A program made the position numbers and the translations under genes. A DNA stretch of 47,697 nucleotides, from NCBI GenBank assembly GCA_009692945.1, contig SHYD01000010.1, forward strand, positions 1-47,697, written 5' to 3'. The stretch comes from Dehalococcoidia bacterium (lineage in GTDB: Bacteria > Chloroflexota > Dehalococcoidia > SHYD01). The first letter of the stretch is position 1. The number at the start of each line of letters is the position of its first letter. Below the pieces are notes generated by a model. That model ran no database searches. It had not been told where the DNA came from and was given only the letters and a program-made list of their open reading frames with translations. Of the stretch, positions 3,117 through 30,254 are shown piece after piece.

Positions 3117-4360
3117 CGCTGGAACTCCCGTTGATACAAACCCAGCAGTTGGGGATACACGATCTCCCAGTCGTAACGGGAGCGCAGCTTGTCCCGCCCT
3201 GCGGCGCCCATGCGCCGTGCCAGCTCCCGGTCCGTCAACAACGCGCGGAGGGCGCCCGCGAGGGCATCAACGTCGCCGAACCTGACCAGGAACCCGTTTT
3301 CGCCGTGGTCGACCACCTCCGGAATACCGCCAGCCTGGGTGCCGATCACGGGTTTCCCGTACGCCCAGGCTTCGAGGAACACGAGTCCGAAGGAATCGAC
3401 CCGGGATGGCATGGCCAGCAGCGCACAGCGGGCGAGCAGGCGCCGCTTTTCGGCTTCGGAGACGTTCCGGTGGACGCGGATGCCTGCTTGTTCTTCTGGT
3501 GGCAGCTTTTCAAAATAGGCTGAAAACTGCCCGGTCACCGTTCCCGCCACATCAAGCGTGATGTCGACGCCGGCGGCGCGCAGCCGCCTGACCGCTTCAG
3601 CGACGTGAATGGCGCCCTTTTCATAGGTGGCGGCACCGAGGAACAGCACCGCCGTGGCCTCCGCCATGCCGTCATCAGAACAAGCCGCTTCGAGCGGAAT
3701 CCCGGCGGGAACAGCATGCACCACGCTGGCTGGCACCCCTCGCCGTATCAGGAACTCGCGCTCGATGCTGGTTAACGCCACCACCCCGGCCGCCCGCCGC
3801 ATCAGGCCGATCTGGTGCGGCATGGCGTAGCTGCGCTCGACCGCCGGGTCGTCTTCAGAGCCGGTGTGCAGGAAGGGCGTGATGAAGAACGCCGCACCGC
3901 AGCGCCGCGCCAACGCTTCGGCCCCCAGCAGCAGCGATTCGAATGGGATGGTGAAGCCGTGGACGACATCGACGGGCTCCTCCCAGTGATTCATCGCCCG
4001 CTGCAGCGCAGGAGACCAGGGAGTGAGGTGAGCCATACGCCCCAGCACCCCTTCCGGGATCCCTCGGAGTCGGGCCAAGCCGACGGTAAGCCGGCGCCAA
4101 CCGTAATAACCGTAGGGCGACGGGGATAGATGACGCAGCGGGAAGCGGACAACCCGCACCCCGTTCGCGATCCCCTCACCGGACGGCAGGTTCTTCTTGC
4201 AGCCGTCCCAAATCGCCTCGACCTCGGCGGCGGTGGAGGTGAGCACGGTCACGCGGTGACCCTCGGCCACCAACCGCTCCGCCAGCATCCGGACGTACAC
4301 CTGGGCCCCTCCCTGGAAGGGCGGGTAACCGATATTGACGAACAGGAAGCGCAATCTCAC
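3113..4360 (-). CDS. Family 4 glycosyltransferase (GT-B fold)
   Basis: A 415-residue protein opening with the acceptor-domain signature FVNIGYPPFQGGAQVYV. The C-terminal donor domain contains FLGAATYEKGAIHVAEAV and EAWAYGKPVIGTQAGGIPEVV, including the Glu region that contacts the donor sugar. It starts at GTG 4360-4358 and is coupled to the next glycosyltransferase by a GTGA overlap. Upstream, only 45 bp separate it from a family-1 element and its 6-bp target duplication, so the element may supply or block its promoter. Confidence 0.93.
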   Translation of the reverse strand: MRLRFLFVNIGYPPFQGGAQVYVRMLAERLVAEGHRVTVLTSTAAEVEAIWDGCKKNLPSGEGIANGVRVVRFPLRHLSPSPYGYYGWRRLTVGLARLRGIPEGVLGRMAHLTPWSPALQRAMNHWEEPVDVVHGFTIPFESLLLGAEALARRCGAAFFITPFLHTGSEDDPAVERSYAMPHQIGLMRRAAGVVALTSIEREFLIRRGVPASVVHAVPAGIPLEAACSDDGMAEATAVLFLGAATYEKGAIHVAEAVRRLRAAGVDITLDVAGTVTGQFSAYFEKLPPEEQAGIRVHRNVSEAEKRRLLARCALLAMPSRVDSFGLVFLEAWAYGKPVIGTQAGGIPEVVDHGENGFLVRFGDVDALAGALRALLTDRELARRMGAAGRDKLRSRYDWEIVYPQLLGLYQREFQR

Positions 4361-27496: not shown

Positions 27497-27890
27497 CGTA
27501 TCTATTCAGACGCCCATGACCACGGGGACACCACCGGTTCATGAAAAGGCCAGGACGGCCCCCCCAAGATCACTCACGGCGGACTGGGCACGCCCCTTGA
27601 CTCCCCTCCCCGCTGGAGGAGAAACAAAGAGATGTTTGGTGAGGGTACACCCCTCACGCTCCCCGCCAGCGGGAGACCCGCGGGACACCCCTGGCGGAGA
27701 TTCTGTTCCTGGTCAGCCACCGCCTTTCACAGCAGTGTCAGGGGTTCGGGGATATGAGCCACTCCCCCACCCCAGGAACAAAGAGGTGAATTCTATGTGG
27801 GGGGGCACCCTCACTCCCCCGGCAGAGGGCTGCCGCCCTCGTGCACTCCCACTCCTGAGCCCGGCCGCCCCTCAACGGTGAATTCTTACG
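27497..27890 (+). repeat. Family-1 element, long composite copy with perfect target duplication
   Basis: The left end is CGTATCTATTCAGAC and the right end, on the other strand, is CGTAAGAATTCACC. It is flanked by TGACAG at 27491-27496 and 27891-27896, 6 of 6 identical. It carries module B (CACCACCGGTTCATGAAAAGG, CCCCGCCAGCGGGAGACC) followed by a forward module A (27738-27880) that is nearly identical to 38260-38395. Non-coding. Confidence 0.9.
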
Positions 27891-27905
27891 TGACAGCAAC
27901 GTTCC

Positions 27906-27935
27906 TTGACGGCCCTGAGCACGGCTTGCTACCAT
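27906..27935 (+). promoter_or_regulatory. Probable promoter of the tRNA-Val gene
   Basis: TTGACG (27906-27911), an 18-bp spacer, then TACCAT (27930-27935). Transcription would start about 23 bp before the mature tRNA. Confidence 0.55.
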
Positions 27936-27965
27936 TCAACCTACTGGCAACCTAATGGCGGCCTT

Positions 27966-28042
27966 GGGCGGTTAGCTCAGTTGGTTAGAGCGCAGCGTTG
28001 ACATCGCTGAGGTCACTGGTTCGAGCCCAGTACCGCCCACCA
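27966..28042 (+). tRNA. tRNA-Val (anticodon GAC)
   Basis: A complete cloverleaf by eye: acceptor GGGCGGT/ACCGCCC, D arm GCTC/GAGC, anticodon stem CAGCG/CGCTG around TTGACAT (anticodon GAC), T arm ACTGG/CCAGT with TTCGAGC, discriminator A, and CCA encoded at 28040-28042. It reads GUC codons and, by wobble, GUU. Confidence 0.96.
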
Positions 28043-28082
28043 TTCGTTTGACTGCCAGACGACCATCGCTGAGGAGTTCGCC

Positions 28083-28370
28083 GTGGCCGCCTACGCCATT
28101 CTGCACATCGACATCACCGACCCGGCGTTGTACGCGGAGTACGTGAAGCTCGCTCCTGCCACGGTGGAGCAATACGGCGGTCGCTATGTGGTGCGCGGCG
28201 GCAAATGCGAGACCACCGAGGGCGAATGGAGCCCTCAACGGGTGGTGGTGTTATCTTTCGATACGGTCGAGCAGGCGAAGCGCTGGTGGGATTCGCCCGA
28301 ATACCGGCCCGCCCGTGAGATGCGCCATCGCGCCGCCACCTCAAAGATGATGATCGTGGAAGGGGTCTGA
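28083..28370 (+). CDS. DUF1330-family small protein
   Basis: A 95-residue product from GTG 28083. It has AYAILHIDITDPALYAEY, YGGRYVVRGG and RWWDSPEYRPAREMRHRAA, the conserved blocks of DUF1330, a ferredoxin-like fold that forms dimers. The biochemical role is unknown. It lies 40 bp after tRNA-Val and ends 33 bp before the thrS T-box core, so it occupies the DNA where a T-box Stem I would normally be. No Shine-Dalgarno is obvious. Confidence 0.85.
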   Translation: MAAYAILHIDITDPALYAEYVKLAPATVEQYGGRYVVRGGKCETTEGEWSPQRVVVLSFDTVEQAKRWWDSPEYRPAREMRHRAATSKMMIVEGV

Positions 28371-28402
28371 CCCCGAGCCAGTGCTGCCGGATCACGGTCA
28401 TA

Positions 28403-28469
28403 GCGGACGAAAGTGGATGGAACCACGGGCGCGCCGCTCGTCCCTCGGACGGGCGGCGCGTTGTTGTTT
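28403..28469 (+). promoter_or_regulatory. T-box-like antiterminator/terminator leader of thrS
   Basis: GGATGGAACCACGG (28415-28428) matches the T-box consensus at 12 of 14 positions and includes the UGGA bulge that would pair with a tRNA ending UCCA. An antiterminator can form: GGA 28415-28417 with TCC 28441-28443, and CGGGCG 28426-28431 with CGCTCG 28435-28440. The competing terminator is a 14-bp stem, 28430-28443 with 28447-28460 (one G-U pair), followed by TTGTTGTTT. Shine-Dalgarno and ATG follow at once. No clear Stem I or specifier codon is found. Confidence 0.72.
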
Positions 28470-28487
28470 AGTACAGGAGCGCCCCAT

Positions 28488-30254
28488 ATGGCTGAAACCC
28501 TGCTGGAACAAGACCACGCTCACGATTTCCTGGACACGATGCGCCACTCTGCCGCTCATATCATGGCCGAGGCGGTCCTGTCCATCTTCCCCGAGGGCAA
28601 GGTGGGCATCGGGCCCACCATCGACTACGGCTTCTACTATGACTTCGACCTCCCGCGCCCCCTGACCCCCGAGGATCTCGTCGCCATCGAGACGAAGATG
28701 CAGGCGATCGTCGCACAGGACGCCCCCTTCAGCCGGGAGGAGGTCAGCAAAGACGAGGCCCGGCGTATTTTCGCTCAACAGCCCTACAAACTGGAGATCA
28801 TCGATGTGATCCCCGACGAGCAGGTGCGGGTGTACCGGCAGAGCGGTTTCACTGACCTGTGCCGGGGACCCCACCTCGAATCCACCGGGCAGGTGAAGGC
28901 GTTCAAGCTGCTCACCATCGCCGGGGCCTACTGGCGCGGCGACGAGAAGCGCCCGATGCTGCAGCGGATCTACGGCGCTGCTTACGAAACCTCCGAGGAG
29001 GTCGAGCGCTACCTGGAACTGCTGGAGGAGGCGCGCCAGCGAGACCACCGCAAGTTGGGCGCCGAATTGGGGCTTTTCACTGTGGCGGAGGAGGTCGGCT
29101 CCGGGTTGCCGCTGTGGCTGCCCAAAGGCGCCACCATCCGGCGCATCCTTGAGCGGTGGATCGTCGACCTCGAACTGGCCTCGGGCTACCAGCATGTCTA
29201 CACCCCGCACATCGCCAAGGTGGAGCTGTACCACCGTTCGGGCCACTGGGAGAAGTTCCACGAGGCGATGTTCCCGGTGATGGAGCGGGACAACGAGCAA
29301 TTTGTGCTCCGGCCCATGAACTGCCCGCACCACATCCTCATCTATAAGTCCGGAATGCACAGCTACCGGGAACTGCCCATCCGTATCGCCGAATTGGGCA
29401 CCCAGTATCGCTACGAGAAATCGGGCGAGCTGTCCGGCCTCAGCCGGGTGCGGGCCATGACCCTGAACGACGCCCACATCTTCTGCCGGGCGGAGCAGGT
29501 CAAGGACGAGTTCAAGGCAGTGGTCAACCTGATCCTCGAGGCGTACAAGCAACTCGGGTTCACCTCGTACTGGCACCGGCTTTCGCTGCACGACCCCAAC
29601 GACCCCGTCAAGTACCACCCGGACGAGGAGATGTGGCAGTTCACCGAGCAGGTGCTGCGAGAGGCGATGGATGAACTCGGGCTGCCCTACGTGGAAGCCC
29701 CCGGCGAGGCTGCATTCTACGGACCAAAGCTGGATGTGCAGGTGCAGACCGCGCTGGGCAAGGACGAGACCATCTCGACCATCCAGATCGACAACCACCT
29801 GCCGCACCGCTTCGACCTGGAGTACATCGGTGAGGACGGCAAGGCGCACCGCCCCACCATCATCCACCGCGGCGTGCTCAGCACCTTCGAACGGATGGTG
29901 GCCTACCTTATCGAGAACTACAAGGGCGTGTTCCCGCTGTGGCTGGCCCCGGTGCAGGCGGTCCTGATCCCGATCGCTGACCGCCACCTGGAGTACGCCC
30001 AGAAGGTGGCGTCTCAGCTACGAGCCTTGGGACTCCGCGTTCAGGTGGACGACCGCTCGGAGCGGATGAACTCGAAGATCCGGGATGCCCAACTCCAGAA
30101 GGTGCCCTACATGCTCATCATGGGCGACCGGGAGGCGGCGGACGGCGCGCTCTCGGTCCGGCTGCTGAGCGGCGAAGAGATCAGGGGTCAGAAGGTGGGC
30201 GATTTCGTGGCGATGGCGCTGGAGGCGGTGAGCAAGCGGGGCGAAGCGGGGTAG
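28488..30254 (+). CDS. thrS: Threonyl-tRNA synthetase lacking the N-terminal TGS domain
   Basis: 588 residues against about 640 for typical ThrS. The editing domain is intact (HSAAHIMAEAV with HxxxH, and CRGPHLESTG). The class II core has RPMNCPHHILIY (zinc Cys), RYEKSGELSGLSRVRAMTLNDAHIFC and IIHRGVLSTFERMVAYLIENYKG. The C-terminal anticodon-binding domain is complete. The first residues lead straight into the editing domain, so the usual TGS domain is absent. ATG 28488 follows ACAGGAGC. It is probably controlled by the T-box-like leader. Confidence 0.96.
   Translation: MAETLLEQDHAHDFLDTMRHSAAHIMAEAVLSIFPEGKVGIGPTIDYGFYYDFDLPRPLTPEDLVAIETKMQAIVAQDAPFSREEVSKDEARRIFAQQPYKLEIIDVIPDEQVRVYRQSGFTDLCRGPHLESTGQVKAFKLLTIAGAYWRGDEKRPMLQRIYGAAYETSEEVERYLELLEEARQRDHRKLGAELGLFTVAEEVGSGLPLWLPKGATIRRILERWIVDLELASGYQHVYTPHIAKVELYHRSGHWEKFHEAMFPVMERDNEQFVLRPMNCPHHILIYKSGMHSYRELPIRIAELGTQYRYEKSGELSGLSRVRAMTLNDAHIFCRAEQVKDEFKAVVNLILEAYKQLGFTSYWHRLSLHDPNDPVKYHPDEEMWQFTEQVLREAMDELGLPYVEAPGEAAFYGPKLDVQVQTALGKDETISTIQIDNHLPHRFDLEYIGEDGKAHRPTIIHRGVLSTFERMVAYLIENYKGVFPLWLAPVQAVLIPIADRHLEYAQKVASQLRALGLRVQVDDRSERMNSKIRDAQLQKVPYMLIMGDREAADGALSVRLLSGEEIRGQKVGDFVAMALEAVSKRGEAG

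Follow-up and report, generated by a model that had tools for sequence, protein, structure and literature searches.

The window, a stretch of 47,697 nucleotides that corresponds to contig C49 of a draft Dehalococcoidia genome (2.5 Mb, 99 contigs, 81% complete), carries on its plus strand a sigma-70-like promoter, a tRNA-Val(GAC) gene, a DUF1330 gene, a linker, a T-box-like element and thrS, in that order. The features of this locus are as follows.

27906 to 27935, plus strand: sigma-70-like promoter TTGACG-18-TACCAT, upstream of tRNA-Val (consensus scan)
27966 to 28042, plus strand: tRNA-Val(GAC) gene
28083 to 28370, plus strand: DUF1330 gene, 95 aa, GTG start (PF07045)
28371 to 28413, plus strand: remaining linker, without Stem I and without Stem III
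28414 to 28417, plus strand: 5' strand of antiterminator helix A1, UGGA, with two of four pairs lost
28418 to 28424, plus strand: T-box bulge UGGAACC, complementary to a tRNA ending ...UCCA
28425 to 28441, plus strand: antiterminator helix A2, ACGGGCG-CGC-CGCUCGU, 7 pairs, intact
28442 to 28445, plus strand: 3' strand of helix A1, CCCU, of which 28442-28443 also belong to the terminator 5' arm
28428 to 28469, plus strand: intrinsic terminator, arms 28428-28443 and 28447-28462, then UUGUUGUUU (28461-28469)
28475 to 28479, plus strand: Shine-Dalgarno sequence AGGAG of thrS (read from the sequence)
28488 to 30254, plus strand: thrS, threonyl-tRNA synthetase (ThrRS), 588 aa (PF07973, PF00587, PF03129)

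The promoter, for which the consensus scan returned one site against 0.2 expected in shuffled sequences, is probably the start of the transcription unit, and a similar TTGACT...TATCAT can be read from the sequence ahead of tRNA-Val in a relative (L169). The DUF1330 gene product matches its Pfam family over its full length (PF07045, E=1.9e-34, residues 3-95), and 43 nt separate its stop codon (28368-28370) from the first base of A1 (28414), close to the approximately 40 nt first estimated. An upstream GTG at 28413 was considered as the start of thrS, giving an open frame of 613 aa, and was rejected given that the ATG at 28488 has a Shine-Dalgarno sequence and matches the start in a relative of the same family (G002); the open frame of 28413-28487, which runs in phase with thrS through the T-box core and the terminator, is probably a chance occurrence in GC-rich sequence. 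No TGS domain was detected in the thrS product by Pfam; the ThrRS starts shortly before the second additional domain, and for most relatives in the class the alignment begins at roughly this position.

The core of the element contains UGGAACCACG at 28418-28427, the T-box sequence that the original prediction had recognized. A covariance model of the core (R2), built from 17 thrS leaders of relatives with the window left out, matches 28412-28459 with 39.5 bits (E=3.8e-7 for the window search), the best match of this model in the whole 2.5-Mb genome (E=2e-5), and nhmmer, with the search size set to 1 Mb, gives the core E values of 4e-8 to 6e-9. These scores indicate that the core is homologous to T-box cores and does not resemble them by chance, and together with the thrS leaders of relatives they uphold the assignment of the element as T-box-derived and belonging to thrS. 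The Rfam model RF00230, which had been proposed as a check, spans the whole leader, and for this reason it finds no match in the window, also when its filters are relaxed; a permissive Rfam search of 28030-28560 returned six sub-threshold chance matches, none of them a T-box. As a positive control, a complete-looking T-box leader in the same genome, apparently that of ileS (L001, G000:C37:92730-92995, minus strand; AUC specifier, UGGU bulge), scores 75.8 bits and is the genome's only match to RF00230. The part of UGGAACCACG that lies outside the terminator stem, UGGAACCA, is kept perfectly, which could reflect either a recent truncation or residual function and continued selection.

The terminator (28428-28462) comprises 16 pairs, two more than the 14 bp first drawn for this competing structure, with a predicted energy of -32.5 kcal/mol (z=-5.2) that none of 200 shuffled sequences equalled; it begins 57 nt past the DUF1330 stop codon, and the U-run after the hairpin is interrupted. 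The antiterminator had been described as drawable, and this holds for helix A2, which is intact; nevertheless, the structure is damaged, A1 being reduced to the two pairs G28415-C28444 and G28416-C28443, with mismatches A28417.C28442 and U28414.U28445 in place of a continuous helix. The 5' strand of A1 is NGGG in all 47 relatives that have a core, as opposed to UGGA in the window, the only one in which GGA occurs; the substituted base is the neighbour of the tRNA-binding bulge. With the consensus G at this site A1 would form and the predicted energy would improve, from -8.7 to -11.3 kcal/mol, a comparison that uses values of the window only, the 3' strand having been misplaced in L177, L181, L182 and L183. 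The predicted fold of the window as it stands keeps only A2. Given that the outer A1 pair shows compensatory changes in most relatives (U-A, C-G, A-U, G-C), the mismatch in the window is not simply a tolerated variation.

A set of 93 thrS upstream regions from the same class was collected and searched, and a T-box core was present in 47; in the remaining regions, some of which are cut short by contig ends, no core was found. A lineage Stem I model, built from 19 of the 47 and thus independent of the other 28, identified Stem I in exactly the regions that have the core, and every one of these has an ACC threonine specifier. Stem I and the core lie 69-136 nt apart, with the single exception of a leader with an insert (348 nt). 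Conservation of the terminator without the core, which had been named as the outcome that would speak against a T-box, is the opposite of what is seen: relatives with the element keep the whole T-box. In several of them (L013:739-1069, L169, L173-L175) the thrS T-box is preceded, at a distance of no more than tens of nucleotides, by a tRNA-Val(GAC) gene, and the two are probably parts of one transcript. G002 (L013) has tRNA-Val(GAC), approximately 10 nt, a complete T-box, a DUF3291 gene and thrS, and G168 (L169), whose ThrRS is 63% identical, has tRNA-Val, approximately 15 nt, a complete T-box and thrS, a spacing of tRNA-Val to T-box within about 10-20 nt in both. Given that tRNA-Val, the core and thrS follow one another in the window as they do in G002 and G168, the window contains the same locus with DUF1330 in the place of the sensor, at the position where Stems I and II belong in L013 and L169. 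Relatives encode homologues of the DUF1330 protein with 32-48% identity; where their location was checked, these genes lie on contigs other than that of thrS, which fits an insertion. The order-level set consists of four other genomes, none of the same genus and two without a recovered thrS, and a protein search of a collection of genome contigs returned mostly distant phyla and no close relative; its thrS matches mark the bacterium as a probable member of the Chloroflexota. Judged by sequence comparison, the element is a descendant of an ordinary, complete thrS T-box.

Two further kinds of thrS leader were noticed among the relatives. The thrS T-box of L025 (minus strand; Stem I 3850-3943, core 3449-3502) has approximately 250 extra nucleotides near Stem III with long inverted repeats, an insert that resembles a small mobile element. 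In the thrS T-boxes of family f35 (L184, L185, L186, L188, L189) the hairpin is not followed by a U-run, and pairing is possible between CCGGC, beside the core, and GCCGGAGG at the Shine-Dalgarno sequence; these leaders are possibly translational T-boxes with a full-length Stem I.

With the lineage Stem I model, each of the 47 relatives that carry a core scores 23-85 bits, and the ileS leader of the same genome 41.8 bits. Applied to 27700-28560 with filters off, the model finds nothing above 7.2 bits, a match of 23 nt, and this result, together with the 43-nt linker, bears out the original prediction of almost no room for Stem I and no specifier loop with a Thr codon. Of the explanations offered at that time, an ultrashort Stem I finds no support in a search that reaches at least 23 bits in relatives, and a Stem I overlapping DUF1330 is countered both by the same search and by the DUF1330 gene itself, which encodes a complete, ordinary Pfam domain. 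A relocated Stem I was sought across the genome assembly, and only the ileS T-box and a match on contig C83 (24.1 bits) were found; the latter was rejected, being apparently coding sequence without a T-box core. A Stem III hairpin ending approximately 6 nt before A1 is present in all 26 relatives examined, and none was found in the window. GGACG (28405-28409) and the AA that follows (to 28412) could be the former flanks, and hence the scar, of a deleted Stem III, the conserved flanks of which are RRRxG and AA (PMC7583486). The linker (28371-28413) was also considered as a homologue of the IIA/B region of relatives, for which the local alignment of ATAGCGGACGAA with TTAGCGGCCGAA is suggestive; the best score is reached by 141 of 500 shuffles and the mean by 30 of 500, and homology is not claimed. 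The fold of 28371-28445 is no better than that of shuffled sequences.

It is suggested that the element is likely to be a 5'-truncated and probably tRNA-blind T-box, the terminator of which has been left as an unregulated attenuator before thrS. Its ancestry and the parts that it has lost are established by the comparison with relatives; the course of events may be pictured as follows. The ancestral unit would have consisted of a promoter, tRNA-Val(GAC), a threonine-specific transcriptional T-box and thrS. A DUF1330 gene would then have come to be placed downstream of tRNA-Val and ahead of the T-box core, with the loss of Stem I and its specifier, of the Stem II region and of Stem III. The remnant would be the last third of the switch, the decision module of antiterminator and terminator, with an intact terminator, the UGGAACC bulge and a mismatched A1. 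According to published structural studies, Stem III is indispensable, the antiterminator alone showing no appreciable binding of tRNA (PMC7583486, section 5.2), and a truncated Stem I needs Stem II (PMC7583486). Given that A1 is reduced by half and that Stem I, its specifier and Stem III are gone, tRNA-dependent antitermination is unlikely, and we infer that the remnant is most likely unresponsive to uncharged tRNA-Thr. The terminator, between DUF1330 and thrS, would then act by default. Expression of thrS would depend on basal read-through of this hairpin, whose U-run is interrupted, and transcription would start at the promoter ahead of tRNA-Val or at another that was not seen. The perfect retention of UGGAACCACG is a point against this reading. 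The position of an essential gene after a terminator both strong and unregulated is likewise awkward, unless there is a second promoter or some other means of antitermination.

The retained bulge raises the possibility that the element is a minimal T-box, in which pairing of UGGA with UCCA at the acceptor end would be enough to sense uncharged tRNA, and neither Stem I and codon reading nor Stem III would be needed. The complementarity of UGGA to a tRNA ending UCCA, as originally proposed, is confirmed by tRNA-Thr(CGU), the only tRNA-Thr gene recovered, which ends ...GGC-U-CCA, so that base N of the bulge matches its cognate discriminator base, U (UGGA / ...UCCA); tRNA-Thr(GGU) was not recovered in the draft genome. 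The UGGAACC bulge and A2 are, moreover, intact, and the terminator competes with them. However, tRNA-Gly and tRNA-Cys of the same genome also end in UCCA and specificity would be lost, an antiterminator without Stem III is reported to bind no tRNA appreciably (PMC7583486), and there is no other example among 48 cores. Given that Stem III is missing and A1 is mismatched, the loss of sensing is the simpler reading, and sensing by the acceptor end alone is improbable. It is quite improbable that a T-box without Stem I and Stem III, made by insertion of a gene into the leader, would act as a general, codon-blind sensor of charging.

A new use of the terminator, as an attenuator under the control of, for example, DUF1330 translation, a protein antiterminator or transcription-translation coupling, would agree with a hairpin that is strong, intact and only 57 nt from the DUF1330 stop codon, and with the apparent tRNA-Val - DUF1330 - thrS unit behind one promoter-like site. 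It is nevertheless unlikely, as neither a leader peptide nor a second competing structure was seen and 28371-28445 shows no more folding than shuffled sequence. An error of assembly, by which the locus was joined or collapsed although the T-box of the actual genome is complete, could arise in a draft in 99 contigs that is 81% complete. Against it, there is synteny with relatives to both sides of the site, through tRNA-Val upstream and through the core and thrS downstream, the site lies in the middle of the contig and the substitution in A1 would need a separate error; such an artefact is very unlikely. The existence of a complete T-box, with a Stem I overlapping the DUF1330 coding sequence or lying upstream of it, is extremely unlikely: GAGACCACCGAGGG near 28214, inside DUF1330, resembles a specifier region and the base of a truncated Stem I can be drawn at 28358-28380 (7.2 bits), but GAGACCACCGAGGG was rejected as a specifier region by the filter-off search, in which nothing rose above noise, in contrast to the 23 bits or more reached by each relative that has a core; DUF1330 is, in addition, of full length and ordinary.

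As a truncated T-box, the locus would constitute a natural experiment: an unrelated gene has taken the place of a riboswitch sensor, and the expression platform still stands before an essential gene. Two questions thereby become open to test, namely what the T-box discriminator can still do without Stem I and Stem III, and how a cell copes when its thrS switch loses its input.

The element resembles the class I transcriptional thrS T-boxes (RF00230; L004, L013, L169) in its gene, its position, the UGGAACC bulge, the ACG/CGU helix A2, the CCC strand common to the terminator and, for some of them, the tRNA-Val neighbour; it differs from them in having neither Stem I with a specifier nor Stem III, in missing two pairs of A1, and in DUF1330 replacing the sensor. 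A reduced 5' part is also found in the ultrashort-Stem-I translational (class II) T-boxes of Actinobacteria (PMC7583486), but these keep a specifier, depend on Stem II and control translation, whereas the hairpin of the window is an intrinsic terminator and not a sequestrator of the Shine-Dalgarno sequence. Given that the lineage Stem I model finds no specifier stem, the element is not an ultrashort-Stem-I T-box. Partially tandem or degenerated T-boxes have been mentioned (PMC7583486), and a degenerated box before an MFS gene has been marked (PMC2494555); like the element, these are incomplete leaders before a gene of the expected class. Unlike them, the locus has no complete first copy, and where the entire sensor has been lost another gene is found, an arrangement for which a limited search of the literature found no precedent. 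Since a match to RF00230, a Stem I with specifier, Stem III and a continuous helix A1 are absent, the element is not filed as a functional member of the T-box riboswitches; it is built like a T-box expression platform and derives from one.
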